DNA from: Stieleria varia
GTDB lineage: Bacteria > Planctomycetota > Planctomycetia > Pirellulales > Pirellulaceae
DNA: 64,000 bases
Direction: 5' to 3'
NCBI RefSeq assembly: GCF_038443385.1
Contig: NZ_CP151726.1
Span: 3,906,001-3,970,000, forward strand
Part shown: one piece after another, positions 25,402 to 63,441 of the stretch
Position numbering within the stretch: position 1 is the first letter of the stretch
Layout of the letters: each line of letters begins with the position of its first letter
Program-made: the position numbers and the translations under genes
Notes under the pieces: model-generated
Database searches by the model: none
Seen by the model: the letters and a program-made list of their open reading frames with translations, nothing else
What the model was told of the DNA's origin: nothing

Positions 25402-25413
25402 TTTAATTCCAAT

Positions 25414-26760: not shown

Positions 26761-26763
26761 TTG

Positions 26764-27483: not shown

Positions 27484-27490
27484 CGGTTAT

Positions 27491-32227: not shown

Positions 32228-32268
32228 TTGAAGTCCGTGAATACACGACGTAATGATCAGGACGAAAA

Positions 32269-36217: not shown

Positions 36218-37091
36218 CTTCCTTCAACGACCGTTTTCAATTCGCATCTTCGTGCCAGACGGAGATCCCGATGGCCTGCGAATGGTCGAGAAATCGAACT
36301 GGACAGGGATCGGTGTTGTCTTCAAACGAACCGGCTACAAGCAGGTGGTCGGTCGGCCCGAGTTTGATCGCACGGGCATCTATGTGCTGGTCGGGTTCAG
36401 CGAAGACAGTGCGCTGCCCACGCTCTACATCGGTGAAGGCGATCCGGTCAAAGAGCGACTCAACCAACACTACAGCAAGAAAGATTTCTGGGACTGGGCG
36501 GTCTTCTTTGTCACCAAAGACACCAGCTTGAACAAAGCCCACGTCAAACATCTCGAATCCCGACTGCTGGAACTCGCCAAAACCGCCAAACAGTGCAAGC
36601 TCGACAACACCGGCTCCTCCTTGCCACCCACGTTGTCGGAAGCCGAACGTGCCGACATGGAGAGTTTTTTGCTGGATATCCTCAGCATCTTCCCGCTGCT
36701 GGGGCTCGGTGTCTTTGAGAAGACCGAAACAAAAAAGAAGCCCAAGAACTTGCTGTACATCGAAGCGAAGGGAATCAAAGCGACTGGCTATGAAGATGCA
36801 AAAGGTTTCGTCGTTATGTCCGGTTCCGAAATGGTGCTGCATGAGACCAACTCGATTCACAATTATCTGTCGGTGATGCGAAAGGATCTGATTGAGAAGT
36901 GCGTCGTTGAGTTGAGGTCAGATCGATACGTTTTCATTGAAGGCTATGCCTTCAGTTCGCCATCATCAGCAGCGGGGGTGATTAAAGGCGGTTCGGCAAA
37001 TGGACGGGATGATTGGAAAGACAAGGATGGTGTGAGTTTGAAAACATTGCAGTCGGCTGCATCGACGAGTGAGGACGAATGCGATGGCTGA
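36210..37091 (+). CDS. GIY-YIG nuclease-domain protein with DUF4357-like C-terminus
   Basis: 293 residues from the Met at 36210, which overlaps the hsdS stop by 8 bp; an upstream Met at 36186 inside hsdS is less likely. GIY (56-58) and YIG (73-75) with the spacing of the GIY-YIG nuclease fold are followed by an Arg-containing helix (VKERLNQH). The C-terminal ~100 residues ([24 protein letters not shown]...) match the DUF4357 domain often joined to GIY-YIG in restriction loci. It could be an accessory nuclease or a DNA-binding partner of the type I complex. Confidence 0.85.
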
Positions 37092-38595: not shown

Positions 38596-38604
38596 CGTGT
38601 GATT

Positions 38605-38644
38605 GGCCCATGCTGGCCCATGCTGGCCCATGCTGGCCCATGTT
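38605..38644. repeat. 10-bp tandem repeat, four units
   Basis: TGGCCCATGC is repeated at 38605, 38615, 38625 and 38635 (last unit ends in T), in the ~190-bp gap between the AlbA_2/ATPase gene and the DUF262 gene. The 10-bp period places each unit on nearly the same helical face. This is the only sizeable gap inside the operon's type I section, so the array may mark an internal regulatory region. A 31-codon frame (38689-38784) lies between it and the next gene but has no ribosome site. Confidence 0.9.
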
Positions 38645-38788
38645 CGGCCCAAGGTAAGAAACGATTAAAAACACGACGATTGAGCCTAATGGCAGGCAAA
38701 AGCTGGTGCAAACGAACAGAAGATCGAATCGAAACGGCTGAGGCCAAACCGAAACAAAATCAGGATCAAGTCGGAAAAGAATAGACAA

Positions 38789-40624: not shown

Positions 40625-40626
40625 GC

Positions 40627-43600: not shown

Positions 43601-44076
43601 GCAAGCACTGTAAGGTGAAGTTCGACGAAGATCCCGCTTTTTATGCGAAGCTGAGCGAAAAGCTGGAAGCCCTGATCAAACAGCACAAGGACAACTGGGA
43701 TCAGTTGGTCGGCGACTTATTCGGTCTTCGAGGCGAAGCAGAGGCGGGACGCAAAGAGGAAATCGAGGGCGTGAGCGCTGAGGCGGCTCCGTTCTACGAT
43801 CTGGTTGGTCAACTGGCTTTCACCGAGAAGTCCGTTCCTACTGATTGTGCTGACACAGTGAAACAACTGGTGTCAGATGTGATTGACCACTTGCAGTCCA
43901 ATATTGACATCATCGACTTCTGGAACCGCCCCACCGAAGTCAGCCGTCTTCGTGGCGAGTTGTCCGATTTGATGCTGGCAACAGGCGTCGATCAAGTAAT
44001 TGAGAATGCTGACAAGCTGGTTGCCGAGATTACACAGCTTGCGAAGAACCGAGAAAGGGACATTCTCAAGCCATGA
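40627..44076 (+). CDS. hsdR: Type I restriction enzyme endonuclease subunit HsdR
   Basis: 1149-residue motor-nuclease. An N-terminal PD-ExK nuclease has Asp150 (IIPDIVLF) and Glu164-x-Lys166 (VVVEAKD). Superfamily-2 helicase motifs follow: Walker A TQGSGKS (323-329), DEAH (440-443), FTGTPL, and late motifs MLLTGFDAPVEQVMYIDK and QTIARVNRI. A long helical C-terminus should bind HsdM/S. All catalytic residues appear intact, so a functional restriction enzyme is likely. It follows the DUF262 gene by 2 bp and its stop overlaps the protease gene start. Confidence 0.96.
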   Translation: MSEYHFVEKPFLDQLKQLDWDVIDQGPAFPTDPAKSLRSNFREIFLRDKFFENVRKINTTEDGQAWLTDKQLEEVYEDISGRTTGSLIEINEAVQQLLYRTQVDENELTGEQYPNVQLIDFQNPLNNSFLAINQFRIDTPSCVKSCIIPDIVLFVNGIPLVVVEAKDINQIESNPMYEAFRQLMRYSGQRQGTHDAGLREGEPKLFHANQFIVRTCGDHCEFGTVTSTEEEYFYPWRDIYPENYRTYEKPLGKERQQELLIQGMLPKETLLDIVRSCTVFMDVGKTRAKIVCRYQQYRAMLKIIARLRKGDTPMERSGVIWHTQGSGKSLSMVFVIRKLRMCDDLKDFKVCLINDRRDLEQQLGETATLSGEKVTYITSTKDLKEKLATDTSNLNMIMVHKFNEAQNKDVPDYLDDALDIPQYENFGVVNSSERILLMIDEAHRSQAGDLGDNLFEAFPQATRLAFTGTPLIAVKDGQIVGQKTAKRFGGYIDKYKLQDAVDDGATVQILYEGKTADSAIDKKHEFDTKVDDAARKHVESQLRKAENVAALKRIAKRDAKPFDDLVKERTAEEILALKQKWGTTGDIMEADERIEDIAEDLVNHYIENILPNGFKAQVVCTSKMAAIKYKKFIDKALAARLAFEEAKPPKSVYVREPESSLHAEGSTEGLMIAAESPALSESGCRDDELCKQIRLLQSVVVISGDGTNEAAVITAARKHAREVNAVDNFKRAFNYDDPEKVNTGIAFLIVCDMLLTGFDAPVEQVMYIDKKVKNHNLLQTIARVNRIAKGKSRGFIVDYIGLSNHLKDALSIYASEDQKDLEESLQNISVELPVLQDRYRRLINLFVDNGVKNIEDFVEQKIGNRTEEFAALEKAVECMEDIKQRSNFEVYFKKFMQSMDIILPNAAANPYKIPVKRFGYIFVRVRDRYKDDTLTISGAGEKVKKLIDEHLISLGINPKIPPVELFSSQFIQEVEKNTSPKAKASEMEHAIRKHCKVKFDEDPAFYAKLSEKLEALIKQHKDNWDQLVGDLFGLRGEAEAGRKEEIEGVSAEAAPFYDLVGQLAFTEKSVPTDCADTVKQLVSDVIDHLQSNIDIIDFWNRPTEVSRLRGELSDLMLATGVDQVIENADKLVAEITQLAKNRERDILKP

Positions 44077-49054: not shown

Positions 49055-50140
49055 CTAGACCTGTTCGGCGACCACGACGGCGCGGTGTTTCTTCATCCGC
49101 CATTCTTCTGGATTCGAGCAGATCAGCGTGTGAATATGGCGGTAGACTCCGGCGATCTTCTTAAAGGCCCCCGGAGAGAGATAGCCTTGCTCGACTCCCA
49201 GCTCGCACCAATGCCTCAGCGAGCTTTCGCTAAAGGCACGCAGAAAGCCCGTGAACTCGTCGGCGTATCTGGTTGCACATCGGTGGCTTTCATACGCCTG
49301 AAAGTACGGGCAATTCACGGATTCGACGCGACACCGTTTGAGACGAAGGGGAACCGGCCTGTCAGCATCCTTGAATGGAGCGGAAATCTGCTCGCTCGTC
49401 CTCAGGTGGATAGGTATCGGCGGACGCGACCAATGATTTCGTACGGTCCCAAAGACTTTGTCGATCCCGAACTCGATCAACCGGAGGGGGATATGATCTT
49501 GCGAACCCGATTCGGATTGTGCCGCGACGAACGATACGACCAACTTTCCTCCAGTGCGAAGCTCGGCGGAGGCGACCGTCAAGAATCGTCGCCATTGCTC
49601 ATCTGCCAATTCACTGAGACACCAATCTTCGCGAGCCGCAAATCCTGGTAGCCCGACCGCGGCATGATCGAGATCAATCCAGTGGAGGGCCGCATTACTG
49701 GTCACCAAATCCAAGCTGGAATTGGGTAGCAGTTGGTCGAGAAAGGAGCCGCAAATCATACTGTGATAGCCGCACGCTCCTTGCTCGTTTCGCATACGCA
49801 CCTGCGTTGCCAAGCCAGGAAAGTCCGCAGGATTCCGCTCGTTGTAGTACGACATCGTGTGGCCATTGATGCAGCGACGAAACGCGTCCGTCAGGGCACG
49901 GCAATTTGGACCGCTCCCACAGCCTCGATCAATGCAAGCTGAAATCTGGCGTACACCAGATGGGTGCTTCGCGTTGTTCCACGGCGATTGCTTCATCTCG
50001 CTCTGGATCAACTTGGCCAAGTTCTCAATGTCAGCGCGTTGCGGAAGACATGGAGTCACTGATTGATGGGCGTGACCTACCAAAATCTCCTGATCAAGAT
50101 CTGCTGTCAAGTTTGGTTTCGTTGGAAGAATCGTGCTCAT
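49055..50140 (-). CDS. SABATH-like SAM-dependent carboxyl methyltransferase
   Basis: 361 residues from the Met at 50140 (MSTILPTKPN); the upstream Met at 50386 adds an untypical region. The SAM site is DRGCGSGPN (71-79), equivalent to the D-x-G-C-S-S-G-P-N of plant SABATH enzymes. The GSF (131-133) followed by LLPNSSLDLVTSNAALHWI matches the family's GSFY...LFP...HSSYSLHWLS block. WRRFLTVASAELRTGGKLVVSF also fits. SABATH enzymes methylate carboxyl groups or nitrogen of small metabolites. They are best known from plants, so a bacterial copy is noteworthy. Substrate unknown; no pathway gene is adjacent. Confidence 0.8.
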   Translation of the reverse strand: MSTILPTKPNLTADLDQEILVGHAHQSVTPCLPQRADIENLAKLIQSEMKQSPWNNAKHPSGVRQISACIDRGCGSGPNCRALTDAFRRCINGHTMSYYNERNPADFPGLATQVRMRNEQGACGYHSMICGSFLDQLLPNSSLDLVTSNAALHWIDLDHAAVGLPGFAAREDWCLSELADEQWRRFLTVASAELRTGGKLVVSFVAAQSESGSQDHIPLRLIEFGIDKVFGTVRNHWSRPPIPIHLRTSEQISAPFKDADRPVPLRLKRCRVESVNCPYFQAYESHRCATRYADEFTGFLRAFSESSLRHWCELGVEQGYLSPGAFKKIAGVYRHIHTLICSNPEEWRMKKHRAVVVAEQV

Positions 50141-50654
50141 TGCTTCTGATCCGCGTCTTAGGGCTGCTGGGCTGGAATAACGAAAAGAAGAGGCACTTAG
50201 CGAGCACCAAATGACCTTTCTCACGAGAAGGCAGCCAGAAATAGAAACTTGATAAAACTTTCTTTCCGAAACTGGCTGCCTTATGGATCCAGCAGTACGA
50301 GTTCTCGTTCTTGCCTGATCGCAAGATCGAACTCGCACTGAAATCCAGCCCCGCCGTTCCTCCTGAAGGCAGCCAAACCGATGCAAGCCAGCACAAAAAA
50401 CAACGACGTCATCGTCGGAACGTCACGAGACGGTGATTTCGTCCTTGAATCTCAATCACTCGCGACTGACGCCGGTTTCAAGAACGTCTCGCAATCCTGG
50501 TTCGACCAGACGTTCCCCATCGAATCATCTATCGAGAATTTGGTCGCGTAGAATGAATCCGCCAAAACAGAAGTGTGTGCTCTCGCCAACCTGGAACCCA
50601 TCGTTGCGTCAGATGGCAACTTTGCGATTCGTGATCAAAAGCAGGATCGGACGC
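50141..50654. other. Intergenic or remnant region upstream of the methyltransferase
   Basis: About 500 bp. A plus-strand frame at 50381-50551 (56 codons, MQASTKNNDVIVGTSRDGDF start) and an overlapping in-phase-shifted segment before it (FPKLAALWIQQYEFSFLPD) look partly coding, as a broken gene might. Neither has a recognisable family. I see no RNA or repeat. Confidence 0.35.
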
Positions 50655-51404
50655 TCACCCCCAGTTCCCACGCAATCGGTCAGTTGGTGACTCTTTGTGG
50701 CGTAGGAACCGCGTTCGGCAAGCGTTTGGCGCTGTCGACTCGAGATGGAGACCGGCAACCACACAATCGACTCGTGGGTGCTGCAGCAAGAATCGGCGAA
50801 GTTGGGCTCCTTTGACGATTGCATCCTGGTGAGAAATTTCGTCAAGTCCGTCGACCGCCAATGTCAATTGACCCGTGCGCAATAGAATCGAGAGCCAATC
50901 GTAGAGTCTGTCGCGACATCGAGTCGGATCATCGATTTTGGACGAATCTGATTCGCGGATCGCTAGGAAATCGTCTTCCAACAGACTGTACAGCAATGAC
51001 TCACCTGTTTGAGGCATCGGGTCATGGGCGTACTGTTTCCAGCTATCGGGCAAACGGCTGATATGGCAACGGAGGACCAGCTTGTCTTTTCGGATTGCCC
51101 CCAGCACACCCTCTATTTGCTGCAGCAGTCGTGTCTTGCCTATCCCTGCAGCAGCCGTCACACAGACCAGCCGTCGCTCCGTGCCGGTTGGCTCGCTGAG
51201 CCAGTCCAGCCGGTGAGGGATCGGACGCCAGCGAGAATCTCGGTCTTGTCCATGCTCTGCTTGAGTCGAATTCTCCGATCCTTGATCGGGCAGGTTGCCC
51301 CGGCGCAGGAAATCCAGTTCCCCGTGCTGGTCTCTCGGACGCAGTTCGAGCAGCAATAACTCCTGATCAGGAATGAATCGCAGGTCTGAAGGGGGACGGT
51401 TCAT
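50655..51404 (-). pseudogene. Truncated NACHT-like NTPase (paralog of 60637-63441)
   Basis: From the Met at 51404, 249 residues align with the N-terminal ATPase part of the 934-residue protein at 60637-63441. Shared blocks are VCVTAAAGIGKTRLLQQI (P-loop), CHISRLPDSWKQYAHDP (compare FELRQLPESAEQFAHRS), and QLTLAVDGLDEI (Walker B). Similarity stops just after VDCVVAG, where the paralog continues VIAGRPYAIK, and a short unrelated tail ends the frame. The remaining ~700 residues, including the FGE domain, are missing. Either degenerate or a short standalone ATPase. Divergent from the vWA gene (about 200 bp). Confidence 0.6.
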
Positions 51405-51610
51405 CAACGTAGCGGTCTGGTGAGAGGCTCTGGAAGATGCACTCCATCGTATCGACCTGAGCAACGGATTTGGGGCGTGGGGCAATCCGGAGAAAGGTCG
51501 ATCCTCATTTTTCTTCCGCCTCGATGAATGTGGCTGCCTTCTTGGTTGAGTGCCAGGACTTTCTGCACACGAGACCTCCAAACCTCCATTTTCATTCGGG
51601 AGCCAAGCTC

Positions 51611-54244
51611 ATGTCCCCCTCCAAAATTTGCCCGCCAAGGGCACTGTTTGCCCTGTTGCTGTTCGGCGTCATTTTGGTCCGTACCATCGCATGCTGCAAC
51701 GCGGACGAGACCGTGACTGCCTCGGAAGCGCCTCATCGAGCGCCACCAGATACATTCATCTTCCTGGTAGATATCTCAGGATCGATGAAAGACAACCTGT
51801 CAGTTGCAGTGCAGCCTCGCTTGACCAACCAGTCCAAGTTGGAACAAGTCAAATCACGACTGACGCGATTGACCAGCGAGTTCCCGCCGGGGACTCGAGT
51901 GATCGTGTCCGTTTTCGACGGACTGAGATCTGAGATTTGTGATCTCGTGCTAACAACACCGTCTCATCGAGACATCTTGTCAGAAAAGATTGCCGGCATC
52001 CAGAGCCGAGATGGCGCTACCGTGCTTTGGGGCTCCGTCGACGAAGAGCTAGCACGTGCAGAAAAGTTGGTCGCAGAAGGCAATTCTCGCGTTCGATTGG
52101 TCGTCTACAGCGACGGCGAAGACAGCGACAAATCGCCTCGAATCAACCATCAAACGCTGATCAGTCGATACGGGCACGTTATTGACAGACAATTGCAATT
52201 GGATTGGGTGACGCTTGGGTTTGATTTGAATCCTCAAGTGAAGTCAGCACTGGAAAAGTCGGGTGTTCGATTCACAAAGGAGCTGATGCCGTTGCGTGTT
52301 GAGTTTCAATTGTCCAAGAACGAGGTTTTTCCCAAAGAAGACCTTCGGCTGACAGACAACAGTTTCGGAGACTCCATTACGCGTCGTGCCGTTGACTGGG
52401 GAGACGGGACTCGGGAATTGTTGCGAAAAACGACGGCAGACATCCGCCCAGCAATTGCTCATCGGTACTCAAAACCCGGTGTGTACAACATTCGCTATGC
52501 AATTGAAACCGAATCTGGCCAACGTGGAGTGGCCGACACAAAAGTCAAGGTAATTGCTCCATCGCTGCCGGAAGTTCGTATTGAATCACCACAAACCGCA
52601 ACGCTTGGGCAATCGATCATCGCCACTGCAAAACCCATGCGTGAAGACTGGCAATACGCTTGGACCATCACTGGAGGCGAGAGCGAGTCGGTCGTTGGCC
52701 CTGTCAGCCGCTTTCGGGCGGACCGGCCGGGTGAGATTGAGTTGCAACTGACGATCACCGATCCGAACGGCATCTCAAAATCCGTCAACCGAATGATTTC
52801 CGTTCAGTTGCCCCGCCTGGATCCGGTTGACATTCAAACCCAGCAGTCCAGTCCACTCGTTGACACTCCAACATTCTTTTCGGCGAGGATGGTAACGGAT
52901 GCCTATTCCTACCGCTGGCGCACGTCCGATGGACAGTCATCGAGTACGCCACATGCAACGTTCCAGTTCAGCAGCTCTGGAACCTATCAAGTGATGCTGA
53001 CCGTCAGCGACCGTTGGGGACAGACCTCAGAGGCATCGACCGAGGTGAAAGTGGTGCCACCTGGTGTTGGCCCGGTAGCTGGTTTTGATTTGGCACCCGG
53101 AGCAATTGCTCTGGGTAGCCCTGTATCCTTTGTTGCAAGTTCGATCCAGGAACACGATCGGGTGAGCTGGTCCATTGACGATCAGCAGTTGTCGACGAGT
53201 AAAGTATTTGTGTTTTATCCAGAACGCTACGGTGATCATCGGGTTTCACTGACCGTTGAGGACCGATTCGGACGGACAGACTCTCAGGAACAGACATTCG
53301 TCGTTCCTCGCCCTGATCCGCCCGTTGCCGGATTCACACTCGGCGCCAATCAATTCACCGTTGGAGACGAAATTCAGTTGACGGACATCAGCACCGGAAT
53401 CATCCAGTCGTGCCGATACGAAATCACTGAACACGAACCTTGGGTCACCAGAGAGAGCAAAGATGCACCGAGAAAACGAGTTTTTGAGTGGACTTGTGAA
53501 TCGGTCGGTACCGTTTGGATCACGCAAACGGTTGAGGGACCTGGAGGGATCGATACCCAAAGGCTGTCCATACAGATCGTCCCTCGTTGGACCCCCGTCA
53601 GCGCCGACTTCCTCCCTGAAATCCCCGCCGAACGAGGCCCCGTTTTGGTACGGTTCAACAACCAATGCACCGGCGACATCCTGCGTTGCGTCTTGAATCC
53701 TGGCGATGGAACTGACCCGATCGCGGTAGATGGTGCGGGCGATCTGGTTCATACGTTCCGCCCTGGGCGGTGGACACCAGAAATCACCGTCTACGGGCCC
53801 GATGAATCCGAAATGACTCCTGTCGTCTGGAAATCTCCGTCAATCGATGTCAGAAAGCCGATCCCGCTGTGGTTCAAGCTGACGGCGGCAAGCATCCCGA
53901 TCGGTCTGTTGGGTTTGCTGGGAATCGTCGTTTGTCGTCGCTGGATGGATGATCGAGCACAACGCCGGTCGGATAAGCGATTGAGCGGCGAGCTTATTCT
54001 GCGATCGGTAGACGATCCTCTGACTGTTCATGCATTCGGATTCATGGGCCAAAATGAACTCGAAGAAGTCATTCTGCCCGATCAAACTCGAATCGAAGTC
54101 CGCAGCAACAGCGACGAATCGAGAGGAAATATTGAATTTGCACTCGAGATGGAATATCCCATCGACGGTACTCGTGAAATGGTCGTCTTGACGCCTAACG
54201 AAGAGGTGGAGGTCGGCAACTACTTCGTCACTTATGCGACGTAG
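51611..54244 (+). CDS. Membrane-anchored vWA protein with PKD-like repeats
   Basis: 877 residues from the Met at 51611 (GGGAG just upstream); earlier Mets lack a signal sequence. A signal peptide or anchor (about 11-30) is followed by a von Willebrand A domain with an intact MIDAS: DISGS (54-58), a mid-domain Thr, and SDGED. Several PKD-like Ig modules follow (AVDWGDGTRELL, AWTITGGESE, YRWRTSDGQSSS, SWSIDDQQLS). A transmembrane helix is at about 752-778 (WFKLTAASIPIGLLGLLGIVV), then a ~100-residue cytoplasmic tail. Thus an extracytoplasmic ligand or protein-binding module is tied to the inside. It is directly upstream of the tubulin-like gene, pointing to a joint membrane-linked complex. Confidence 0.88.
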   Translation: MSPSKICPPRALFALLLFGVILVRTIACCNADETVTASEAPHRAPPDTFIFLVDISGSMKDNLSVAVQPRLTNQSKLEQVKSRLTRLTSEFPPGTRVIVSVFDGLRSEICDLVLTTPSHRDILSEKIAGIQSRDGATVLWGSVDEELARAEKLVAEGNSRVRLVVYSDGEDSDKSPRINHQTLISRYGHVIDRQLQLDWVTLGFDLNPQVKSALEKSGVRFTKELMPLRVEFQLSKNEVFPKEDLRLTDNSFGDSITRRAVDWGDGTRELLRKTTADIRPAIAHRYSKPGVYNIRYAIETESGQRGVADTKVKVIAPSLPEVRIESPQTATLGQSIIATAKPMREDWQYAWTITGGESESVVGPVSRFRADRPGEIELQLTITDPNGISKSVNRMISVQLPRLDPVDIQTQQSSPLVDTPTFFSARMVTDAYSYRWRTSDGQSSSTPHATFQFSSSGTYQVMLTVSDRWGQTSEASTEVKVVPPGVGPVAGFDLAPGAIALGSPVSFVASSIQEHDRVSWSIDDQQLSTSKVFVFYPERYGDHRVSLTVEDRFGRTDSQEQTFVVPRPDPPVAGFTLGANQFTVGDEIQLTDISTGIIQSCRYEITEHEPWVTRESKDAPRKRVFEWTCESVGTVWITQTVEGPGGIDTQRLSIQIVPRWTPVSADFLPEIPAERGPVLVRFNNQCTGDILRCVLNPGDGTDPIAVDGAGDLVHTFRPGRWTPEITVYGPDESEMTPVVWKSPSIDVRKPIPLWFKLTAASIPIGLLGLLGIVVCRRWMDDRAQRRSDKRLSGELILRSVDDPLTVHAFGFMGQNELEEVILPDQTRIEVRSNSDESRGNIEFALEMEYPIDGTREMVVLTPNEEVEVGNYFVTYAT

Positions 54245-54276
54245 TTGCTTGCCTTTTTGTTGTGGTTCAAGGCGAC

Positions 54277-54319
54277 GGGCCTCAGGGATCCACCAGGGTC
54301 TCCGAGGCCCATTTTTATT
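54277..54319 (+). terminator. Terminator after the vWA gene
   Basis: GGGCCTC (54277-54283) and GAGGCCC (54304-54310) pair around a 20-nt loop, and ATTTTTATT follows. It lies 33 bp after the vWA stop, so the downstream tubulin-like gene may have its own promoter in 54320-54444 or be reached by partial readthrough. Confidence 0.65.
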
Positions 54320-54444
54320 CCCTCGTTTTGCAATTCGTTGATCCCAGTAGGTTTCTGGCTGCCTTCTCTGCTGTGTTGGACGAGCGATCGTCAAACGTTT
54401 GTCATTGACTCCTTTCAAACCTCCAAGCGACAGGATTTCGAACC

Positions 54445-57400
54445 ATGTCCACTACCAACGGCCAGAGCACAACCAATGGGCAGCCTACAGTCCCGCACAA
54501 TCGAATCGCTACGTTGATTCCCTCCAACCCAGCAGAATCCGTTTCTCGAGAAACTGACGGCACCACGAACTCCGAGGTCGTCGAAAACCAAGCAACTGCG
54601 ATCCTGACTCAGTTGGAGGCCAATATCAGATTGACCCAACCGGCCGGGTTGCTGTTCCTTGGTGGCGCAGGCAATCAGGTCGGTCGACGACTCAAAAAGC
54701 AGCTCCAAGAACAAGACAGTCAACCCTTCGTCAAGTATCTGAGCATCGACACCGACGCCAGTGCCCAAAACGGCAGCGGATTTACCGATGAGGAGTTCTG
54801 CTTGCTCGGAACAGGCCGCGTACACAATGTGCTGGACTATCCTGAGATGCATGAGCCGATTGTACATCGAGCTGACTTGAGCGACCCAAAACGAATTGCT
54901 TTCCACCAAGAACTCATCGCAAAGGGGCTCGACCATGGCGGTCAGGTTCGCTCGTTTGGCATGATGAGCCTGCTGAGCGAGTACTCGATGGTTTCCAGTC
55001 GGCTTGCCAGCATGATTCGGGAGCTGACGGGCACTCTGGTCCGACTGAAGAAACAGCTAGAATCCAAGAGCCAAGTTCGGATCCGAAACCGATTGCGATT
55101 CTACGTGGTGTTCTCGATTGCGGGAGGGACTGGCAGTTCCATGGCTTTGGAAGTGATGGCGTTGCTGCATCATCTGGTGAAACGATTGGAGGTGGAGATC
55201 ATCCCCATCTGCATGGCGCCCTCCGTGTTCGAGCTTGTACTGGAGGGCCGTACAGAGCAACTCGTACGCACCGGTGCGAATGGTTACGCATCGATCCAGG
55301 AATTGGCGGCGTTGCAATGCGGACTGTCGACACGCTCTGATGTGGCGTTGGGACCTGACGAGAATCGTCCCATTTATGTGCCCGCCGGTTTCTGTGACCA
55401 GATCTTTTGGGTCCAGCGAAAAACAGCAGATGGTCGTGATCTTGGATCGGCGGAAGCCGTCTACGACATGGTTGCCAATTGGATGGCAGCGATGATCGGC
55501 ACCGAACTGAGTGATACCATCCAATTAGAAGATCGCAATCAAGCGACCTTGAGCGGGCAATCCGTCGATCCTCGGACTCACATGCCGCGCAACGTGTCCA
55601 CACTTGCTGCGACCGCTCTATCATTGGACGTCGAGCGAATCGAAACTTTCTGCACGCAGCGTGCGCTGATGGAGTTCATTGGCCAAGCCGTCATCGGTTC
55701 CGCTCCGATCGAAAAGGAAGTTCATCGCGCGGTCGCGAACTGGATGAACAGTCCCGGTGACGCTCAAAGCGTTTCACTCAACGGAAGCGCCTTAGTCGAC
55801 ATGCTAAAGCGGGCGTCGCGCCCCAGTATCGAAAGCCGCTGCAACGCATTGTTCGACGGAAAACGACGCAACCGACCGGTCCACTTTTCAGATCGGCGAT
55901 TTGCAGAGCATTTGCGCTCCCTACGCGGGCAAGTCGATCGGGACCTGATGCCCAAGTGTGAGGTCCAAATCGACCGATGCCATCAGACACTGGTGGATTC
56001 TCTTACCAATGCATTACAGACCACCGTGAACGCCCATGTCGCCAGCCATGGCTCCGCCTTTGTCGTCCAGTTTGCTCGTCATCTAGAAGGGGCGTTGGAG
56101 GCGCACGCGGAGACGCTCGGTGTTGCAACGGCCAAGGACCGCAAACGGGCTGAGGAAATGTTCGTCAAGCTGGATGAGCAGGCGACGATCTGGAGCAATC
56201 GCAGGTTCAAATGGTTGAAATCCAAACAGGAGCAGATTCGATTGGCCGGCGAACTCACCGTCGCGGTCGACTTGGCGACGTTGGCACGCTCCAAACAGGC
56301 GGCCGCACAGATCTTGAGCGCCTTGGCAAGCAACGCGAATCGCCTAATGCACGCTGCCAGTGAGAATTGTGTCGCGGCGAAGAGCAAGTTGGTCCGATGT
56401 CAGCAAGTGCGAGACGACGCACGAGCTGGACGACGGGTGACCACGGACAGTTTGGCAGAGATCGACGTCGCCTCAGAGACCAGCGATGAACAGCTTTACG
56501 CTCGGTTTCGACCGGAATTGTCTCAGTTGGCACCCTGCCGCAAAGTCTCGCGATCCCAATGGCTGCTGAACCTGTGTACGAACCAAGATGATTTCGCACA
56601 ACTGACTCGGCAACTACGTGGTCATTTCCGCAGCAAGCTCAAATCGGTGACTGTCGTGGATCTGTTGGCCGATCAATTGATCCATCCCAAGACCTCAGCC
56701 GAGGCACTCGCCAAAATCCGGCAGGTGATGCAGGGAACCCAACCGGCTTGGCAAGCCGAAAGCGGAATCAATGGGATCGAGTTTGCCGATACTTTGATTG
56801 CGGGTGTTCCGGAGGCGATGGTGGACTCCAAACGTAAGTTGGTCGTCGACCAAATGATGTCACTGGCAGCATCAATCAATGCTAATTCCCAATACCGTTC
56901 GACGCCCAAGCACGTCGTCAGCGGCGACCGACGAAAGATTTACCTGATTCGTCGCACAACAGGCGCTTGCTGGCACTATTTGGACGAAATACAGGATTGC
57001 GAGAAAGCGTTCCAGGAGTGGAGTCAAAACGGAGGGCATCCCGTCCACATTTTTGGTCGCGAAGCGGTCGGAAAGATGCCACCTCTCATTCCTCAGCCGA
57101 AACCCAAGGCCTCCGAAATCGCATTGGCTCTCGGACTAGCCTACGGATTCATCGCCCAACGTGGCCCGCACTACTACAGCAATTTGGTGGTTGAGGATGA
57201 TGGCACCTATCGTTGCCCGTTGGCCAGCCACTGGCCGACGATCGATCATCGGTTGGGTGGTGCTGCTGAATCAGGGCCACTTGGGATGCTGGTCGAGAAA
57301 GGGCGAATCGTTTTCGACGGTAGTAACCAAATGTGTGAGTCCGACAAGCTGGGCGAATCACTTCGTACTGTAATGTCGACGATGGCGGATCAACCGCTGC

Positions 57401-57588
57401 TTGTCGCGGCGATCAACAACGCCTTTGACGAATTGCGAGCGTTGGTGGGTGACGGCGAACTCGCGACCGAATTGGATTCTCACAACACACGACTGTCTGC
57501 AATGGCACACAAGTACGTCGGCGAGTCGCAGGCGTTCAATAAGGTGATTGCCTTGCTGACGCAAAAAGCGTCTCAGTTGAGACAATGA
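54445..57588 (+). CDS. Large tubulin/FtsZ-like protein (Tubulin_2 type)
   Basis: 1047 residues, start preceded by ACAGGA. The N-terminal third has the layout of a tubulin-superfamily GTPase: FLGGAGNQVGRRLKKQL (71-87), YLSIDTDAS (99-106), and the signature loop FSIAGGTGSSMALEVMALL (223-241), compare GGGTGSG of FtsZ and GGGTGSG of tubulin. FtsZ has about 380 residues; here a ~600-residue helical extension (SNRRFKWLKSKQEQIRLAGELTVAVDLA, coiled coil-like) and a C-terminal domain follow. FtsZ-like proteins linked to vWA proteins have been described computationally and proposed to remodel membranes. GTP binding is likely from the loop; polymerisation is unproven. Confidence 0.85.
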   Translation: MSTTNGQSTTNGQPTVPHNRIATLIPSNPAESVSRETDGTTNSEVVENQATAILTQLEANIRLTQPAGLLFLGGAGNQVGRRLKKQLQEQDSQPFVKYLSIDTDASAQNGSGFTDEEFCLLGTGRVHNVLDYPEMHEPIVHRADLSDPKRIAFHQELIAKGLDHGGQVRSFGMMSLLSEYSMVSSRLASMIRELTGTLVRLKKQLESKSQVRIRNRLRFYVVFSIAGGTGSSMALEVMALLHHLVKRLEVEIIPICMAPSVFELVLEGRTEQLVRTGANGYASIQELAALQCGLSTRSDVALGPDENRPIYVPAGFCDQIFWVQRKTADGRDLGSAEAVYDMVANWMAAMIGTELSDTIQLEDRNQATLSGQSVDPRTHMPRNVSTLAATALSLDVERIETFCTQRALMEFIGQAVIGSAPIEKEVHRAVANWMNSPGDAQSVSLNGSALVDMLKRASRPSIESRCNALFDGKRRNRPVHFSDRRFAEHLRSLRGQVDRDLMPKCEVQIDRCHQTLVDSLTNALQTTVNAHVASHGSAFVVQFARHLEGALEAHAETLGVATAKDRKRAEEMFVKLDEQATIWSNRRFKWLKSKQEQIRLAGELTVAVDLATLARSKQAAAQILSALASNANRLMHAASENCVAAKSKLVRCQQVRDDARAGRRVTTDSLAEIDVASETSDEQLYARFRPELSQLAPCRKVSRSQWLLNLCTNQDDFAQLTRQLRGHFRSKLKSVTVVDLLADQLIHPKTSAEALAKIRQVMQGTQPAWQAESGINGIEFADTLIAGVPEAMVDSKRKLVVDQMMSLAASINANSQYRSTPKHVVSGDRRKIYLIRRTTGACWHYLDEIQDCEKAFQEWSQNGGHPVHIFGREAVGKMPPLIPQPKPKASEIALALGLAYGFIAQRGPHYYSNLVVEDDGTYRCPLASHWPTIDHRLGGAAESGPLGMLVEKGRIVFDGSNQMCESDKLGESLRTVMSTMADQPLLVAAINNAFDELRALVGDGELATELDSHNTRLSAMAHKYVGESQAFNKVIALLTQKASQLRQ

Positions 57589-57620: not shown

Positions 57621-57660
57621 ACCTCGGTCAAAGAATGGTTGACCGAGGTATTCTATTCTT
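57621..57660 (+). terminator. Terminator after the tubulin-like gene
   Basis: ACCTCGGTCAA (57621-57631) pairs with TTGACCGAGGT (57639-57649) around a 7-nt loop, followed by the T-rich ATTCTATTCTTT. It lies 33 bp beyond the stop codon of the tubulin-like gene and appears to close the transcription unit. Confidence 0.8.
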
Positions 57661-57904
57661 TCGATGACGCGCAGTCATTACACCAGGACGCAATTCTGAA
57701 ACTTTGAAAGAATCATGTCTTGGTTGACGTGAACGCCAGCTATAGCCGGAACCAAGTTCTGCATCACGTCACTAATTAGACGGTTCCCAGACCAAATAAG
57801 TAGTACTGCAGAAATCAGGCCGGCATGCTCGAATCGCGATCTAAATACCGTCATCGTCTGTAAGCGCCCAACGGCACCATGTGCCGTCGGGGCGGGCGGA
57901 GGGT

Positions 57905-59662
57905 TTATTCTGACTCGGATTGGCTGAGGCGTCGATCGAGTCGGGCTCGGTCACGCCGGGCGTTGCGTTGCCGACGCTCTTCGGCGCGGTAGTGACGAAC
58001 CGATTCTGGGTGTGACTTAGCCCACGCATCTGGACGCAAGCTCGCGTAGTCGGTGCTGCCGGATAACAGCGTATCGAGCACGTCTTTGATGTAGGCGTAG
58101 ACATCCAGGTCATTGCGGATCGCGCTGCTGCACAACGTCATTAAGTCCGCCGTGCGATAACCGGCAGCTACACTGCCGATGAACAGCCAGTTCTTGCGAC
58201 CCAGCGCAACCTGTTTCATCAACTGTTCGCACTCGTTGTTGTCGATCGGGATCCGACCATCCTCAAGGTACTTCACTAAGCCATCCCATTGATTTAGCAA
58301 ATAGCCCTTCGCTTCGCCGATCTTCTCCTTCGTTGACACCTTCGACATCTCGTTTTCCAAGTAGCTACGAAGCAGCGCCCACACCGGCAAAGCGTGCTCT
58401 TGCCGAAACGCCAATCGCGCGTCCCAGTCCATGTGGCGACATTGATCTTCCAAATCGTAAAGCCGATTGAAACACTTCAACAACGCGGTCGCATGCTCAC
58501 GATGATTACCTAACGCATACTCCGCCTTGCGTCGCGCATGGGCAACGCATGCGGCATGGACAACCAAGCCGTTGGAACGCATGTGAATCCCAGTGTTCGC
58601 GCCGTAGCAATCGCCAAGTAACGTGCCTTCGTAATCGCGATCAATCAAGAACAGGTCCGGCCCGTCCCGATGTCGACTTACCGTGAAGTCAAACACGTTG
58701 ATCGGAACACTCACCCCGCGATAGGCCCACATCTTGGCTCGAACACTCTTGGCGTTCTCCTCTTTGGCTTTCGCAATCACCTCCGCAGCCCTGCGGCTCT
58801 TGGGGTCGTCTTCGTCAATCTTGGGGATGTCTTTGGGAAGCAGCAACAACACGCCCGTGTCATCACTGCCGATGCAATGATCGGTGCGAACCAAATCGGC
58901 CAGATAGGCAGCAAACGGACGAATCAACTTCGCCGCTGCTTCTTGGATGTTCAATAACGAACTGCGAGAAATCGTGATCCCGCAACCAGCAAAAAGATCC
59001 TCTTGGCGATAAATCGGCAAGTGATAACTGAACTTCGCGGCGATGATCTCTGCGGCGAAGGAGGTGTCGTAGCGATCGCCCGCGATCAACGATTCGGGCC
59101 GTGGCATCTGCATCACGCCTGCATCAGGTTCACCGCTGCGGACGTACTTGGGATAGATCTTCTGCAAGATGTAAACGATTGGGCGACGATAGTGAGCCGT
59201 CTCGACGATGTCTTCGCCGATTCGCGTCAGGCCTTCCTTCTCTTCGTCGGACAAGTCGATCAGGACTTGCTTTCGCTCTAAGCTCTCGGGGAATCGCTCG
59301 TTACGTTTCCGCCTGCGTGGCTTGGGTTTTGATTTGCCAGTGTTGTTGTTTTCATCGCATGCTTGCTCGATACCTTCTCGCGCGTCAGCAGCTTGTTCGG
59401 GTGTGGCAAACTCAAACTTGAGCTGGTCGACATCGTCGAAGCGTTCGCTTTGGCGACCAAACAGACGGCGGATCAGGGCTTCGAGCTGGTCGCGAGATTT
59501 ACGAAGTTCATCACTGATCGCTTCGTTCTTTTTGATCAGCTTTTGCTTCTCGTCGCCCAGCTTGGCAACTTCTTCAAGTAGCAGCTTGGCGTCGCTTGCG
59601 AACTTCTCGTTCTGCTCGCGAAGGATTGCGTTTTGTCGCTCAAGTTGCTTGATTCGGTTCAT
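57905..59662 (-). CDS. tnpC: IS66-family transposase TnpC
   Basis: 585 residues from the Met at 59662 (MNRIKQLERQNA); a longer frame to 59860 adds non-family residues. A coiled coil (about 1-60) is followed by the zinc-binding-like region and the transposase core: GDCYGANTGIHMRS, AACVAHARRKAEYAL, and the family signature DGRIPIDNNECEQLMKQVALGRKNWLF. These are characteristic of IS66 TnpC, the DDE enzyme. Intact. Confidence 0.96.
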   Translation of the reverse strand: MNRIKQLERQNAILREQNEKFASDAKLLLEEVAKLGDEKQKLIKKNEAISDELRKSRDQLEALIRRLFGRQSERFDDVDQLKFEFATPEQAADAREGIEQACDENNNTGKSKPKPRRRKRNERFPESLERKQVLIDLSDEEKEGLTRIGEDIVETAHYRRPIVYILQKIYPKYVRSGEPDAGVMQMPRPESLIAGDRYDTSFAAEIIAAKFSYHLPIYRQEDLFAGCGITISRSSLLNIQEAAAKLIRPFAAYLADLVRTDHCIGSDDTGVLLLLPKDIPKIDEDDPKSRRAAEVIAKAKEENAKSVRAKMWAYRGVSVPINVFDFTVSRHRDGPDLFLIDRDYEGTLLGDCYGANTGIHMRSNGLVVHAACVAHARRKAEYALGNHREHATALLKCFNRLYDLEDQCRHMDWDARLAFRQEHALPVWALLRSYLENEMSKVSTKEKIGEAKGYLLNQWDGLVKYLEDGRIPIDNNECEQLMKQVALGRKNWLFIGSVAAGYRTADLMTLCSSAIRNDLDVYAYIKDVLDTLLSGSTDYASLRPDAWAKSHPESVRHYRAEERRQRNARRDRARLDRRLSQSESE

Positions 59663-59807
59663 GCAACCGAAGGTAACGATGTGGCGCAAAAGCGCAAGAG
59701 CAAACCGGCCAAAGCAACAAAAAAAGAGCAAGTTTTCTTGGCCCCAATCAGACCGTTTGAAAACTTGCTCTTGTGAGTGATGACGTCGGCTTTCGCGTCG
59801 GTGCGAA

Positions 59808-60155
59808 TTACGCGGCCTTGAATCGCTTGCGTCGCTTGGCGTTCTCGATAGAGATTCCACCGAGCAACATGGCTAGTTCCGCCGCGTCGATCTGAACGGT
59901 CGACTTGCCTTGGTCAGTGATCCGCTCAAACGTTCCTGACTCCAGTCGCTTGTACCACAGTGCCAAGCCGTCGCGATCCCAGTAGAGTGCTTTGAGCTTG
60001 TCTTTGCTTCGGTTGATGAACAGGAAGAGGCTGCCGTCGTTGGGTTCCCGTTGCAACGAATCTCGAACGATACCGGCTAGTCCACAAAAGCTTTTTCGCA
60101 TGTCGGTGGGCTGGGAGAAAAGGAAGATGTCGGTGTTGGTTGGCAATGCGATCAT
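59808..60155 (-). CDS. tnpB: IS66 accessory protein TnpB
   Basis: 115 residues from the Met at 60155, overlapping the tnpA stop as ATGA. Shows the TnpB (IS66 Orf2) pattern: PTDMRKSFCGLAGIV, GSLFLFINRSKDKLKALYWDRDGLALWYKRLE, and LAMLLGGIS. TnpB is required for transposition of IS66 elements; its mechanism is unclear. The Met at 60188 would add 11 residues out of family. Confidence 0.93.
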   Translation of the reverse strand: MIALPTNTDIFLFSQPTDMRKSFCGLAGIVRDSLQREPNDGSLFLFINRSKDKLKALYWDRDGLALWYKRLESGTFERITDQGKSTVQIDAAELAMLLGGISIENAKRRKRFKAA

Positions 60156-60508
60156 GACGTGTGCTCCTGCTGGGCAAGTGAGAGCCATCCGCTAGTCTGA
60201 ATTCTCTCGATGACGGCCAGCAGGATGTCGATTCGCTGTGCTGGGATTTCGATGACGGCTCCGACGGTCAGGCGAACTCTCAGAGGCGGTTCGTCATCGA
60301 TTGACTCGCTCGGGAGAACTTCAACGGGCAGGAAAGTCTGCCTCGGTTGGTCAGTTGCTTGCGAGAGTTCTCGCCGCCATTTGTAGAACGATGCGGTCGA
60401 GATTTGTTGTGTGTCACAAAACCGAGCGATGCTCAATCCCGAGTGTGACTGGCGAGAGATCAATTCTCGCCAAGCCTGCCGCAGGGCAGGATCCGGTTTT
60501 CGCGCCAT
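60152..60508 (-). CDS. tnpA: IS66 accessory protein TnpA
   Basis: 118 residues with an N-terminal helix-turn-helix (WRELISRQSHSGLSIARFCDTQQISTASFYKWRREL), as in IS66 TnpA (Orf1), and a C-terminal strand-rich segment (VRLTVGAVIEIP). First gene of the element, 74 bp from the right end. Translationally coupled to tnpB. Confidence 0.93.
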   Translation of the reverse strand: MARKPDPALRQAWRELISRQSHSGLSIARFCDTQQISTASFYKWRRELSQATDQPRQTFLPVEVLPSESIDDEPPLRVRLTVGAVIEIPAQRIDILLAVIERIQTSGWLSLAQQEHTS

Positions 60509-60636
60509 GGTGGACTCCGTGTAGGCGGGGCAAAACCCGCCAAACTAAACCGGCAGTCAAGATGAAACCTACGTGCGCTTACCATCGTCTGCGGCATACA
60601 AAGAGTTCATCGCACTCGTAGACGCCTTGGATTGGG

Positions 60637-63441
60637 TTAGAGGCATTCCCTAGCACTATTTCGAGCAATTCTGCAGCCGTAGTCACAACGCAATAAATCT
60701 TGATCAACAACCATTCTTGACGTGCAACTCACATCGGACGGAGGCTCGTAGTATGAGCCTCCCCTCAGCCAACGTTCGGTTTCCCAACATTCAATAGTTC
60801 TTCCTAAGACTACAGCAAAGGCATCTTGAAATAGCGGGTTGACGAAATCCAGACCTTCATGGTTAGAAACAGACACCGGCCTGCTGATGCCATTCGAACA
60901 CCACTCCCAAACCAATCCATGCATGTCGTAGAGTTCAGCCGACGTTGTCGGTAGCAGTTGCCCAGGAACGGATACTGAATTTGTGGACCACAGATCTGCG
61001 TTGTCATTCCATTCCGAATTGGACTTTTCAAAGTGTGCGTGTAATTCAAGAAGCTCTTCGTTGTTGCCAAAACCATACACCGTGTGCTTTTGCAAATCTA
61101 AGTTTCCGATATTGCCGCGACATGCGGCCTCCCACAGGTGTTCATCTGGCAAGCATCCGTGGGCCCAGACTGCAAACAATTGTGCGTCGCACCAACGAAG
61201 AGACTTCGCAGATCCGTCGACTGGCTGTATTTGACCGTCAAAAACCTGATAAAGCGTATCGGAAACACAATACGCATTGAGCTGAAAAGACTCCACGAAT
61301 AATGGGTGATTTGGGTCTGGTGAATCGCCATAAAGAAACGGTCCTCCCTGAATCGCACGAAAATTTCGTTCGAAAAGCCAAAGCGGATAATGCTCTGCCA
61401 AATAGGTAAGTCTCGATATCCGCAGCGATTCGTCTTCTCGTGTTCGTGCGTAGATCATTTCCGGATTTATCGGAGTGAATTCGCAATCGAGGTAAAACGC
61501 CCGTCGCATTTCAAAGGTCACGTTACAATCCGTTGTTCCCCGCTCTTTTTCATCGGCTAACTTTAAGAGATAGTCTGTCAAGAATTCAAAGACGAGTTTC
61601 CTTGCGGGGCCACCCTCTTCAGGATTCTGCCGCTCAAACAGATCCCGAACCTCACGCTGAGCGATTGTGATCGCCTGAGCCGTTGTAGTTTGATTCCAGT
61701 CCGACCGATCACTGTGATCTCTCGCTTCCTGATAGCCGGATCTCCACATCAGGTCGGGCAAACATTGAAACATCAGTTCTGTCGGGCGTGCTTGATCCTT
61801 GGTCGTAAACAATGGACGCACTGCGGTGGCCCAAGAATCCTCTGTTGCCGCATTCCCTGAATGAACTCGTTTTGGGCTTCGATCAGGCATGCCAACGACG
61901 AATCGCCAAAACTTTGCAAAGTCCGGTGAATTCAGATCCTTGGTGACGCGCTGACGCGGATCCCGCTCCGAAAAACTCAGAAGGGATAATTCACGTGATC
62001 GTAGAACCTGACACTGATCCGCCCAGTAGCACGCCGCCCAATGGGCGGCGAAAAAGTCTCGAATGGTCACATCAGACATTCTTACGTCGACAACTTCATC
62101 GGGACGTTCGATACTGGTTGTCTCGCTGTAGAAATGGAATTGAATCGATTCGGAATCGATCTGAGCAAGATCGAGTAGCTCCTTCTCAAAGTCGATTCCG
62201 AGCTCCTTCAAAACAGCGATGAATCCGAATTCCTCCATGTAGTCAAAGAAATTTCTCGCCGAGTCACTTGTGATCGAGGGCACGCAGTCAACCGGATCTT
62301 CTTTCCAGGTAATCATTGCGAACGCCACAGCCGAAACGATTGGAATCACGTGGGATCGCTTCAGATACCGGAGTTCTGAATCTTTGGTAGAGTTTCGAAA
62401 GTTGGCGATGACCGTTTCATTCATGGAGTACCAATACAAGTCGGAAGCGGTCTGCATGTGCGCGAGCTCACCGGGTTTCAACTCACGAATGATATTGAGT
62501 GTCCGCGGCAGCCGAATCTCCTCGGCATCCATTCGCTTGAGCGCATCCAATTTCTTCTTGCCCTCGGTCGTCCCTCCTTCCGCTGACAGGTATTCATCCG
62601 CTTGATCGCGAGAGAATTTTTCGACTTTACAGAACGTCCAAACGGGAATTTGCCTCATTTCCTCGTCCTGCAACTCTTTCGGTGCATCCTTCAATTCGCC
62701 GAGCTGCAGTTCATCCCAGACGCGTTTGATCGCATAGGGCCGGCCGGCAATGACGAGGCGAATGCCAGGAAAGTAGTCGGTGACAAAGGAGTTCAGAGCC
62801 GCTGCCCGTTTCTCTGCTTCCTGGCGGTTCAATTGGTCAAAGGCGTCAACGATCAGAGTCAGGCTGCCCGTTCTTAATGCATGAAAGAGCTGCTGTTCGA
62901 TCTCTGGATCAGACGGGAACCGCCAAGTTGCTCGATAATGCTTTTCTCGGATGGCTCCGTACTGCGCCAGTAGCTTTTCGAATAAGGTCGAATGCGAAGT
63001 GTGGCTTGGTCCGGATCGATGAGCAAACTGCTCGGCACTCTCAGGGAGTTGGCGCAGTTCAAATCGCAGGGCGATATGACCTGGTTCGGCATTCTCGGTT
63101 GCAACTTCGAGCTCTTCCAGCAACTTGGACTTCCCCACGCCGCCTTCCACAGTGACACACAGACGGCGAATACTCAGGTCTTGAAGAAATGCATGTCGGT
63201 TTGGCTCATCTGGCCAAAGACTCGGATCATATCGCAGCACAGGTTCAGATTGCCCGTTTGGGTCCTGTGTTGGGTTAGAACCCAATGCGTCGATGTAATC
63301 TTTCAGTGGGCATGCGTTCTTGGCTGGAAAAGCCAACCGGCACAGACGCTGATCACGAATGAATTTTCCGAACTTCATGAACTGTGAAATCAATGCGGGG
63401 GGGCGATGCGTTTTGAGGCATTCTAGCCGAACATGGTTCAC
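60637..63441 (-). CDS. NACHT-like NTPase fused to formylglycine-generating-enzyme (FGE) domain
   Basis: 934 residues, GTG start at 63441 (an ATG at 63378 is an alternative). Walker A VEGGVGKS (98-105) and Walker B LTLIVDAFDQL (194-204), with VIAGRPY after, identify a STAND/NACHT-type ATPase. A helical middle (about 330-660) is followed by a C-terminal sulfatase-modifying-factor/FGE domain: LPDEHLWEAACRG, YDMHGLVWEWCSNG, RWLRGGSYYEP and CTSRMVVDQD...YGCRIAR. FGE-like domains serve as enzymes or as C-type-lectin-like ligand binders, including in conflict and retroelement systems. It faces the tubulin-like gene across the IS66 element. A truncated paralog of the ATPase part is at 50655. Confidence 0.82.
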   Translation of the reverse strand: MNHVRLECLKTHRPPALISQFMKFGKFIRDQRLCRLAFPAKNACPLKDYIDALGSNPTQDPNGQSEPVLRYDPSLWPDEPNRHAFLQDLSIRRLCVTVEGGVGKSKLLEELEVATENAEPGHIALRFELRQLPESAEQFAHRSGPSHTSHSTLFEKLLAQYGAIREKHYRATWRFPSDPEIEQQLFHALRTGSLTLIVDAFDQLNRQEAEKRAAALNSFVTDYFPGIRLVIAGRPYAIKRVWDELQLGELKDAPKELQDEEMRQIPVWTFCKVEKFSRDQADEYLSAEGGTTEGKKKLDALKRMDAEEIRLPRTLNIIRELKPGELAHMQTASDLYWYSMNETVIANFRNSTKDSELRYLKRSHVIPIVSAVAFAMITWKEDPVDCVPSITSDSARNFFDYMEEFGFIAVLKELGIDFEKELLDLAQIDSESIQFHFYSETTSIERPDEVVDVRMSDVTIRDFFAAHWAACYWADQCQVLRSRELSLLSFSERDPRQRVTKDLNSPDFAKFWRFVVGMPDRSPKRVHSGNAATEDSWATAVRPLFTTKDQARPTELMFQCLPDLMWRSGYQEARDHSDRSDWNQTTTAQAITIAQREVRDLFERQNPEEGGPARKLVFEFLTDYLLKLADEKERGTTDCNVTFEMRRAFYLDCEFTPINPEMIYARTREDESLRISRLTYLAEHYPLWLFERNFRAIQGGPFLYGDSPDPNHPLFVESFQLNAYCVSDTLYQVFDGQIQPVDGSAKSLRWCDAQLFAVWAHGCLPDEHLWEAACRGNIGNLDLQKHTVYGFGNNEELLELHAHFEKSNSEWNDNADLWSTNSVSVPGQLLPTTSAELYDMHGLVWEWCSNGISRPVSVSNHEGLDFVNPLFQDAFAVVLGRTIECWETERWLRGGSYYEPPSDVSCTSRMVVDQDLLRCDYGCRIARNSARECL

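Follow-up and report, generated by a model that had tools for sequence, protein, structure and literature searches.

A vWA/PKD and Tubulin_2 gene pair in Stieleria varia

We analyzed a 64-kb stretch of the Stieleria varia genome (NCBI RefSeq assembly GCF_038443385.1, contig NZ_CP151726.1, positions 3,906,001 to 3,970,000; hereafter the window, from whose first base its coordinates are counted), the source genome being 9.72 Mb in a single contig. The analysis centers on two adjacent genes predicted to encode a membrane-anchored von Willebrand factor A (vWA) protein and a tubulin-like protein:

51611..54244, + strand: vWA (MIDAS)/PKD-repeat envelope protein; open reading frame (ORF) intact, 877 aa, topology predicted
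54445..57588, + strand: Tubulin_2/FtsZl1-type protein, 1047 aa (Pfam, AlphaFold2 model, alignment)

Both ORFs are intact and lie on the same strand with 200 bases between them. The vWA ORF spans 51470-54244; the in-frame ATG at 51611 is its probable start and 51470 a possible one.

The second protein falls in the Tubulin_2 (FtsZl1) family, which was reportedly named in 2010. The hidden Markov model (HMM) check suggested by an earlier sequence-only reading of this DNA gave a Tubulin_2 (PF13809) match of 123.6 bits (E 1.5e-35) against a cut-off of 27; the canonical Tubulin model PF00091 scored 22.2 bits, under its cut-off of 33. No Pfam kinase domain was matched in this protein, unlike in kinase-fused planctomycete FtsZl1. 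The AlphaFold2 model (mean pLDDT 77.0, pTM 0.62) has a low-confidence segment (1-60), a GTPase-like domain (~62-470), a long helical region (~485-658, ~170 residues) and a conserved C-terminal part (~660-1047) modeled as helices plus some strands, which fits the FtsZl1 layout, with the coiled coil read from the model helices. The 50 PDB matches listed by Foldseek were CetZ, FtsZ, TubZ, tubulin and tubulin-containing assemblies, with CetZ, FtsZ and tubulins first; the best match had E 2.4e-5 and probability 1.00, with modest TMt values (<=0.51 among the 50 listed), and the sequence profile barely reached CetZ (E 0.94). The predicted structure is that of a tubulin-superfamily protein: where the sequence-only reading had named lack of a tubulin fold as its refutation, model and Foldseek give a CetZ/FtsZ/tubulin fold.

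The T4 loop GG[TS]G (AGGTGSS in the window) and the T2 motif [DE]T[DE] were kept in 10/10 tubulin-like proteins of the subfamily described below, T1 GG in 9/10, and a T7-like motif, an acidic residue three positions before Asn, in 8/10; these loop names are our assignment from FtsZ anatomy plus the model. The window protein is a candidate FtsZ-like GTPase that would bind and hydrolyze GTP and polymerize. The claim of a 1047-residue tubulin relative carrying AGGTGSS at these coordinates was thus borne out, except for its description as giant: 1047 aa is ordinary for this kind of protein, and two paralogues in the same genome have 1072 and 1126 aa.

In the first protein, the VWA_2 match (27.0 bits) sits exactly at the Pfam cut-off of 27, and PKD_4 (88.1 bits) and PKD (70.7 bits) are both well above theirs, with several PKD domains present. 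The MIDAS residues DxSxS, T and D were kept in 8/8 aligned vWA proteins of subfamily loci. A hydrophobic N-terminal segment of the signal/anchor type covers residues 5-23 of 877, and a transmembrane (TM)-like segment at residues 757-775 gives one predicted C-terminal TM helix. The AlphaFold2 model (pLDDT 79.6, pTM 0.35) runs from a helix and a vWA-like alpha/beta part through a long string of beta domains to a helix at 753-788 and a final beta domain at 792-876 (~85 residues, predicted cytosolic). Its top Foldseek matches were fragments of a grappling-hook protein, followed by many other Ig-like domain strings. The intact MIDAS vWA/PKD protein with a tail, as first proposed, is confirmed, with its membrane topology as predicted from sequence and model.

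A distinct and rare subfamily

The tubulin-like protein and its relatives at 10 loci formed one clade (support 98/97) in a tree of 61 Tubulin_2 domains; eight aligned relatives share 25-32% identity with the window protein. Full-length relatives (E < 1e-100) were detected by protein search in 5/396 genomes of an order sample, of which 31 had some match at E <= 1e-3, and further searches returned 3/392 genomes of a phylum sample (E <= 1e-20) and, with a profile, 6/397 genomes of a class sample (E <= 1e-25). These three counts include the source genome, and they are not independent, as the samples overlap. One more relative (G021, L013/L092) came from a Pfam search of 60 relatives. A contig scan returned three relatives, all of which were also found otherwise, and missed other known ones; the records L076 (Planctomycetaceae MAG-47), L077 (Thalassoglobus neptunius KOR42) and L078 (a metagenome-assembled genome labeled Candidatus Kuenenia stuttgartiensis) are the same contigs as L069, L072 and L073, respectively. 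No match to the tubulin-like protein was found in phage records, and nothing in viral contigs, where the search was insensitive, being limited to exact matches of short peptides from a single protein.

Exactly one Tubulin_2 match was found in 12/13 congeners and none in the remaining one. A large separate clade holds six congeners placed on the tree together with the paralogue of the source genome at 9.59 Mb (Pkinase, 112.7 bits), apart from the window protein; a Pkinase domain precedes Tubulin_2 in 6/6 scanned proteins of that clade (the source genome, four congeners and one other). The third Tubulin_2 protein of the source genome (2.38 Mb, L034) lies on a distant branch and has its own vWA/PKD gene upstream. 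We concluded that the window subfamily, as delimited by search and tree, is rare, well supported and new here, and that it lacks the kinase domain found in other forms from planctomycetes.

As a side observation, the very divergent vWA/PKD-Tubulin_2 operon at L034 (6688-16657) continues with a 782-aa protein with two hydrophobic segments. It also encodes a 586-aa protein with six hydrophobic segments and a P-loop (nSTAND 32.8 against a cut-off of 34, DEAD above its cut-off).

The sequence-only reading had tied the pair to a phylum often lacking FtsZ. That premise held for the source genome, in which PF00091 had no match at E <= 1e-3 (13/14 control genomes match); a bearing of the pair on life without FtsZ is not supported. 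We rejected a replacement for FtsZ in division, since the gene is too rare and did not turn up in the congeners tested. Because the window gene is rare and island-borne, it is not general division machinery, and a role as FtsZ substitute is unlikely.

Conserved pairing and a frequent MCE/MlaD-type partner

A vWA gene lies immediately upstream on the same strand in 9/9 subfamily loci with data; at L086 only the C-terminal part of this gene is on the contig, and the L085 contig ends before it. An MCE/MlaD-type membrane protein of 210-366 aa precedes the vWA gene in 5/8 loci with upstream data, L085 and L086 falling outside this count as their contigs end. By Pfam MCE score, three of the five copies are above the cut-off and one is just below (22.1 vs. 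25.1); the fifth has no Pfam match, yet aligns with the other four. This frequent partner of the subfamily, recognized by sequence comparison, is a new observation.

These MCE proteins raise the possibility of a trans-envelope lipid or substrate conveyor, in which the MCE protein and the vWA/PKD rod would bridge the inner and outer membranes and the tubulin-like protein would replace the MlaF-type ATPase as driver. All five copies share a TM-MCE-TM(-TM) layout, a PGN.G motif is invariant among them, and a profile of the five returned, from 397 class genomes at E <= 1e-6, three copies, each beside the pair; as the sequences of these three genomes were themselves among the five used to build the profile (A7), what is informative is that the other 394 genomes gave no match. 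Both findings agree with a conveyor. It is nevertheless very unlikely in our judgment: in the four copies scanned, scores stayed well short of the MlaD and Mce cut-offs of NCBIfam; no system-type MCE protein was found in the source genome at E <= 1e-6, and its two MlaD-domain genes, elsewhere at 8.01 and 5.41 Mb, scored poorly against the system-type profile. Moreover, no MCE gene was found in the window, L069 or L092, so the MCE gene is not essential to the unit. A copy hidden in the window was also sought and rejected (nothing at E <= 10 in a profile search of the ORFs; best tblastn E 1.7). A shared downstream partner of ~780 aa (L092, L034, L093, L073) was likewise discarded, there being no detectable similarity among these proteins or to the hypothetical protein of the Thermaceae clusters described below.

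Island setting and defence neighbors

The pair looks to be placed inside a mobile defence island. The gene order in the window is tRNA-Ala, integrase, Qat, type I restriction and then the pair:

15521..15593, + strand: tRNA-Ala(cgc), probable left end of the island
15715..16899, + strand: phage-type integrase, after tRNA-Ala
24646..29446, - strand: Qat defence genes (PADLOC), QatD 24646-25401, QatC 25414-26760 and QatA 27491-29446
29876..44076, + strand: type I restriction-modification genes (single-gene matches): two methyltransferase (MTase)-type genes, specificity subunit, Orf5/HEC-06-type gene and restriction endonuclease

The gene left of the tRNA (11815-15285) was matched in 13/13 congeners at 73-78% identity, and the similarity to congeners runs out where this gene ends (query 1772-1799 of 2141), so the region beyond is not syntenic in congeners; synteny ends at ~15.3 kb. 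The tRNA-Ala and integrase together are the probable left boundary of the island. STAND-like genes, with ATPase matches below cut-off, lie on both sides of the pair, one of them fused to a formylglycine-generating enzyme (FGE) domain. The unscanned gene at 26764-27483 is presumably QatB, by its position in the Qat order. In the restriction cluster, 29876-34878 holds two tandem MTase-type genes, the first of which has best matches covering the N-terminal part of MTase models only.

Defence or mobile genes, as called from sequence matches, are present in most of the neighborhoods read. L068 has three ATPase-FGE genes (NACHT above cut-off in two, 21.9 vs. 26.7 in the third) and a diversity-generating retroelement (DGR); at L072/L089, NACHT-FGE genes occur together with a DGR and an E1(ThiF)-like gene; L069 likewise has an E1(ThiF)-like gene, along with an FGE gene. 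L070 adjoins HmaC/DUF499-like genes, L071 has a mad8/HerA-like ATPase, and L092 has VirD4/TraG-like genes. FGE genes were found near the pair in 5/8 genomes searched (of 10 with the pair), the nearest at 0.5-13.8 kb, and this proximity gave a Fisher-combined P of 1.7e-4 with G405 and G438, which have no FGE on the tubulin contig, set to P = 1. The nearest FGE matches to the two other Tubulin_2 genes of the source genome are ~31 and ~124 kb away. In the same 8 genomes (G951 and G1021 were outside both searches), a reverse transcriptase (RT) lies within 10 kb of the pair in G073 and G597 only; in G247 the RT, which is present in 11 equal-scoring copies, lies ~20 kb away.

The DGRs at L068 (11378-15505) and L089 (3242-16109) have their variable repeats in NACHT/ATPase-FGE genes beside the MCE-vWA-tubulin operon. 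As expected of DGRs, all differences between template and variable repeat are at template A (11/11 in L068; 14/14 and 5/5 in L089); in L089 one template matches two repeats, the second within a gene seen as two ORFs. No RT was found near the window locus, and we rejected the idea that a DGR diversifies the FGE gene of the window, as the repeat script at its thresholds gave no A-biased repeat in the window.

Related clusters on plasmids of other phyla

Two plasmid records matched the window protein weakly in a first plasmid search. On three Thermaceae plasmids (Thermus oshimai, Meiothermus and Allomeiothermus) the order is vWA, tubulin-like, hypothetical and BrxL; in Allomeiothermus, brxL is preceded by an IS701 copy. 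A fourth (T. thermophilus, L110; the others are L100, L101 and L102) carries an ORF whose match to the tubulin-like protein covers just its last 265 residues, followed by the hypothetical gene, brxL and a helicase gene. Of the two plasmids run through PADLOC, the one from Allomeiothermus gave BrxL and a DrmD/BrxH-like helicase and the one from Meiothermus gave HmaC; the remaining gene identities are the records' own annotation. The two tubulin-like proteins measured have 909 and 911 aa and 24-25% identity to the window protein; the vWA proteins have 521-555 aa, with no PKD match in the one scanned, and the third protein has no Pfam match. The cluster is possibly a BREX-related defence system with a putative tubulin-like component. 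It resembles the window pair in having a vWA gene and then a Tubulin_2-type gene in a defence setting, but its tubulin-like and vWA proteins are shorter and its homology to the window protein is distant.

Comparison with known systems

Operons of vWA and FtsZl1 genes and planctomycete FtsZl1 proteins are described in the main text of Makarova and Koonin (2010; PMC2875224), so the planctomycete arrangement, which the sequence-only reading had presented as novel, was already on record. As in the FtsZl1 proteins (PF13809) of that text, a Tubulin_2 domain is joined to a coiled-coil and helical C-terminus beside a vWA gene with intact MIDAS; unlike them, the window protein has no N-terminal kinase (reported there in 4 planctomycete FtsZl1 proteins), belongs to a distinct subfamily and has a defence-island setting. 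The words 'Mce' and 'MlaD' are absent from that main text.

The same text puts forward a membrane-remodeling hypothesis for FtsZl1, according to which a vWA-anchored polymer would shape the inner membrane as a remodeling or vesicle machine with an ordinary cell function. The published operons and hypothesis, the predicted TM anchor of the vWA partner, and the MCE/MlaD-type gene in 5/8 loci, which points to membranes or lipids, agree with such a machine, but we hold it to be somewhat unlikely for this pair in view of the very patchy distribution of the subfamily, the lack of any find in the congeners tested, and neighborhoods that are often islands with defence genes.

GTPase-centric GAP1-N2 conflict systems with tubulin and vWA genes, some planctomycete ones with FGS effectors, are reported in the main text of Kaur et al. 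(2020; PMC7159879), from which the word 'lipid' is absent. The window pair is like them in its tubulin-domain protein with a C-terminal helical/coiled-coil region and its membrane vWA protein; unlike them, it had no GAP1, TRAFAC GTPase or HSP70 match in the 9 ORFs scanned with Pfam (44.9-63.4 kb, pair included). DGR-diversified NACHT/STAND-FGE proteins are presented as putative antigen sensors in the main text of PMC10907252, and NACHT and FGE-type target genes of that kind neighbor the pair, with a DGR in L068 and L072; in contrast, there is no RT near the window locus, and 'tubulin' is absent from that main text. We found no publication describing this module or joining Tubulin_2/FtsZl1 with MCE/MlaD, BREX or BrxL, most subscription papers, preprints and supplements being outside the scope, and no functional test of FtsZl1 in titles and abstract starts under that name, other names not being exhausted.

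A candidate conflict module

The genes belong together and one product is predicted to be membrane-anchored; every later step is our inference. We interpret the pair as an envelope module of the vWA-FtsZl1 kind that is accessory, patchy in its distribution and probably used in conflict or defence, and give this reading a probability of about 50%. The MCE/MlaD-type gene of the sister loci favors a membrane role, and the defence-island context favors a conflict role; because much of the co-traveling cargo is defence cargo, conflict use (an anti-phage or a kin/competitor response) appears most likely. The pair is thus a candidate for a conflict system built on the cytoskeleton, not for a machinery of cell division.

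In such a system, the PKD string would extend across the periplasm with the metal-dependent vWA head on it, and this head would there bind an envelope or invader ligand. A signal could then run via the TM helix, causing the cytosolic tail to recruit and nucleate the tubulin-like protein; GTP-dependent head-to-tail assembly, using the T7-like acidic residue and Asn, would yield a membrane-attached polymer that might act on the inner membrane or serve as a signaling scaffold. In sister systems the MCE/MlaD-type protein may be a membrane- or lipid-contacting arm.

Several observations weigh against a conflict role. Defence islands gather hitch-hikers, and the defence calls for the neighbors are single-gene HMM matches rather than complete-system typing. 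No PADLOC 2.0.0 defence model matched the tubulin-like protein of the window or that of L102, and on the window vWA protein the same release gave nothing but a weak TerY match (E 0.028). In the proteins themselves, the VWA_2 score is borderline, T1 is altered in 1/10 subfamily members and the T7-like motif is lost in 2/10. No defence neighbor was recognized at L073, where few ORFs were scanned, and the contrast with the other Tubulin_2 genes of the source genome is not clean: a vWA gene and an nSTAND-like P-loop protein occur in the divergent L034 operon as well. Of 15 plasmid records with a match, 11 were inspected; 4 had brxL nearby and 3 an annotated vWA gene upstream. The four Deinococcus plasmids instead have OmpA-family neighbors, with a MotA/TolQ/ExbB gene as well in one of them, and the two Azospirillum and one Cylindrospermopsis records inspected show neither a restriction-modification nor a BREX gene in their annotation.

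A bolder form of the conflict reading, in which vWA-Tubulin_2(-MCE) units would be an undescribed class of mobile envelope-spanning conflict system whose surface rod senses attack and sets off assembly of a membrane-bound tubulin-like polymer, the polymer then remodeling the inner membrane or closing it, in some cases along with an MCE lipid arm and co-traveling DGR-diversified STAND-FGE recognition modules, is unlikely. The repeated defence or mobile company, together with the vWA and frequent MCE tie, makes the function of these tubulin relatives directly testable; a tubulin-like polymer in bacterial conflict would, if true, be a new use of the cytoskeleton.

Immediate flanks of the pair

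The features adjoining the pair are:

49055..50386, - strand: Methyltransf_7-type methyltransferase (Pfam)
50655..51581, - strand: STAND/NACHT-like fragment (Pfam matches below cut-off)
57621..57649, + strand: terminator-like hairpin, ~30 bases past the tubulin stop (consensus match only)
57860..60582, - strand: IS66 element, ends GTAAGCGC/GCGCTTAC, 8-bp direct repeat CATCGTCT on both sides
60637..63441, - strand: FGE-sulfatase (C-type-lectin type) protein, convergent to the pair and STAND-like by a weak AAA match below cut-off (Pfam)

The IS66 element starts ~270 bases downstream of the tubulin stop and leaves the pair unbroken; its ORFs are a transposase (57905-59860), TnpB (59808-60188) and a further unscanned ORF of 118 aa (60152-60508), some of these names being our assignment. 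Loss of a downstream gene cut off by IS66 was rejected, since the terminator-like hairpin lies before the element. The hairpin at 57621..57649 suggests the end of a two-gene unit; 17 terminator-like consensus sites were found in the region vs. 8.1 expected. The fragment at 50655..51581 shares 29% identity over 237 aa with the N-terminal part of the 60637..63441 protein.

This fragment occupies the place of the MCE gene in sister loci, and with the IS66 inserted downstream it could mean that the window pair is a hitch-hiker or decaying remnant that has lost its MCE partner and is now functionless. We consider such decay quite improbable: the two ORFs are unbroken and reach full length while sharing ~30% identity with relatives, the nucleotide loops and MIDAS are kept, and L069 and L092 are also without MCE, yet retain the pair.

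The methyltransferase at 49055..50386 shares 38.7% identity over 336 aa with the gene next upstream of the pair in L069 (3344-4438); carboxyl-methyltransferase-like homologues thus adjoin the pair in the window and L069, which are sisters on the tree and both without an MCE gene. Between the vWA and tubulin genes, a small terminator-like hairpin with a T-rich tail (54296-54310; again a consensus match only) could tune the ratio between the two products.

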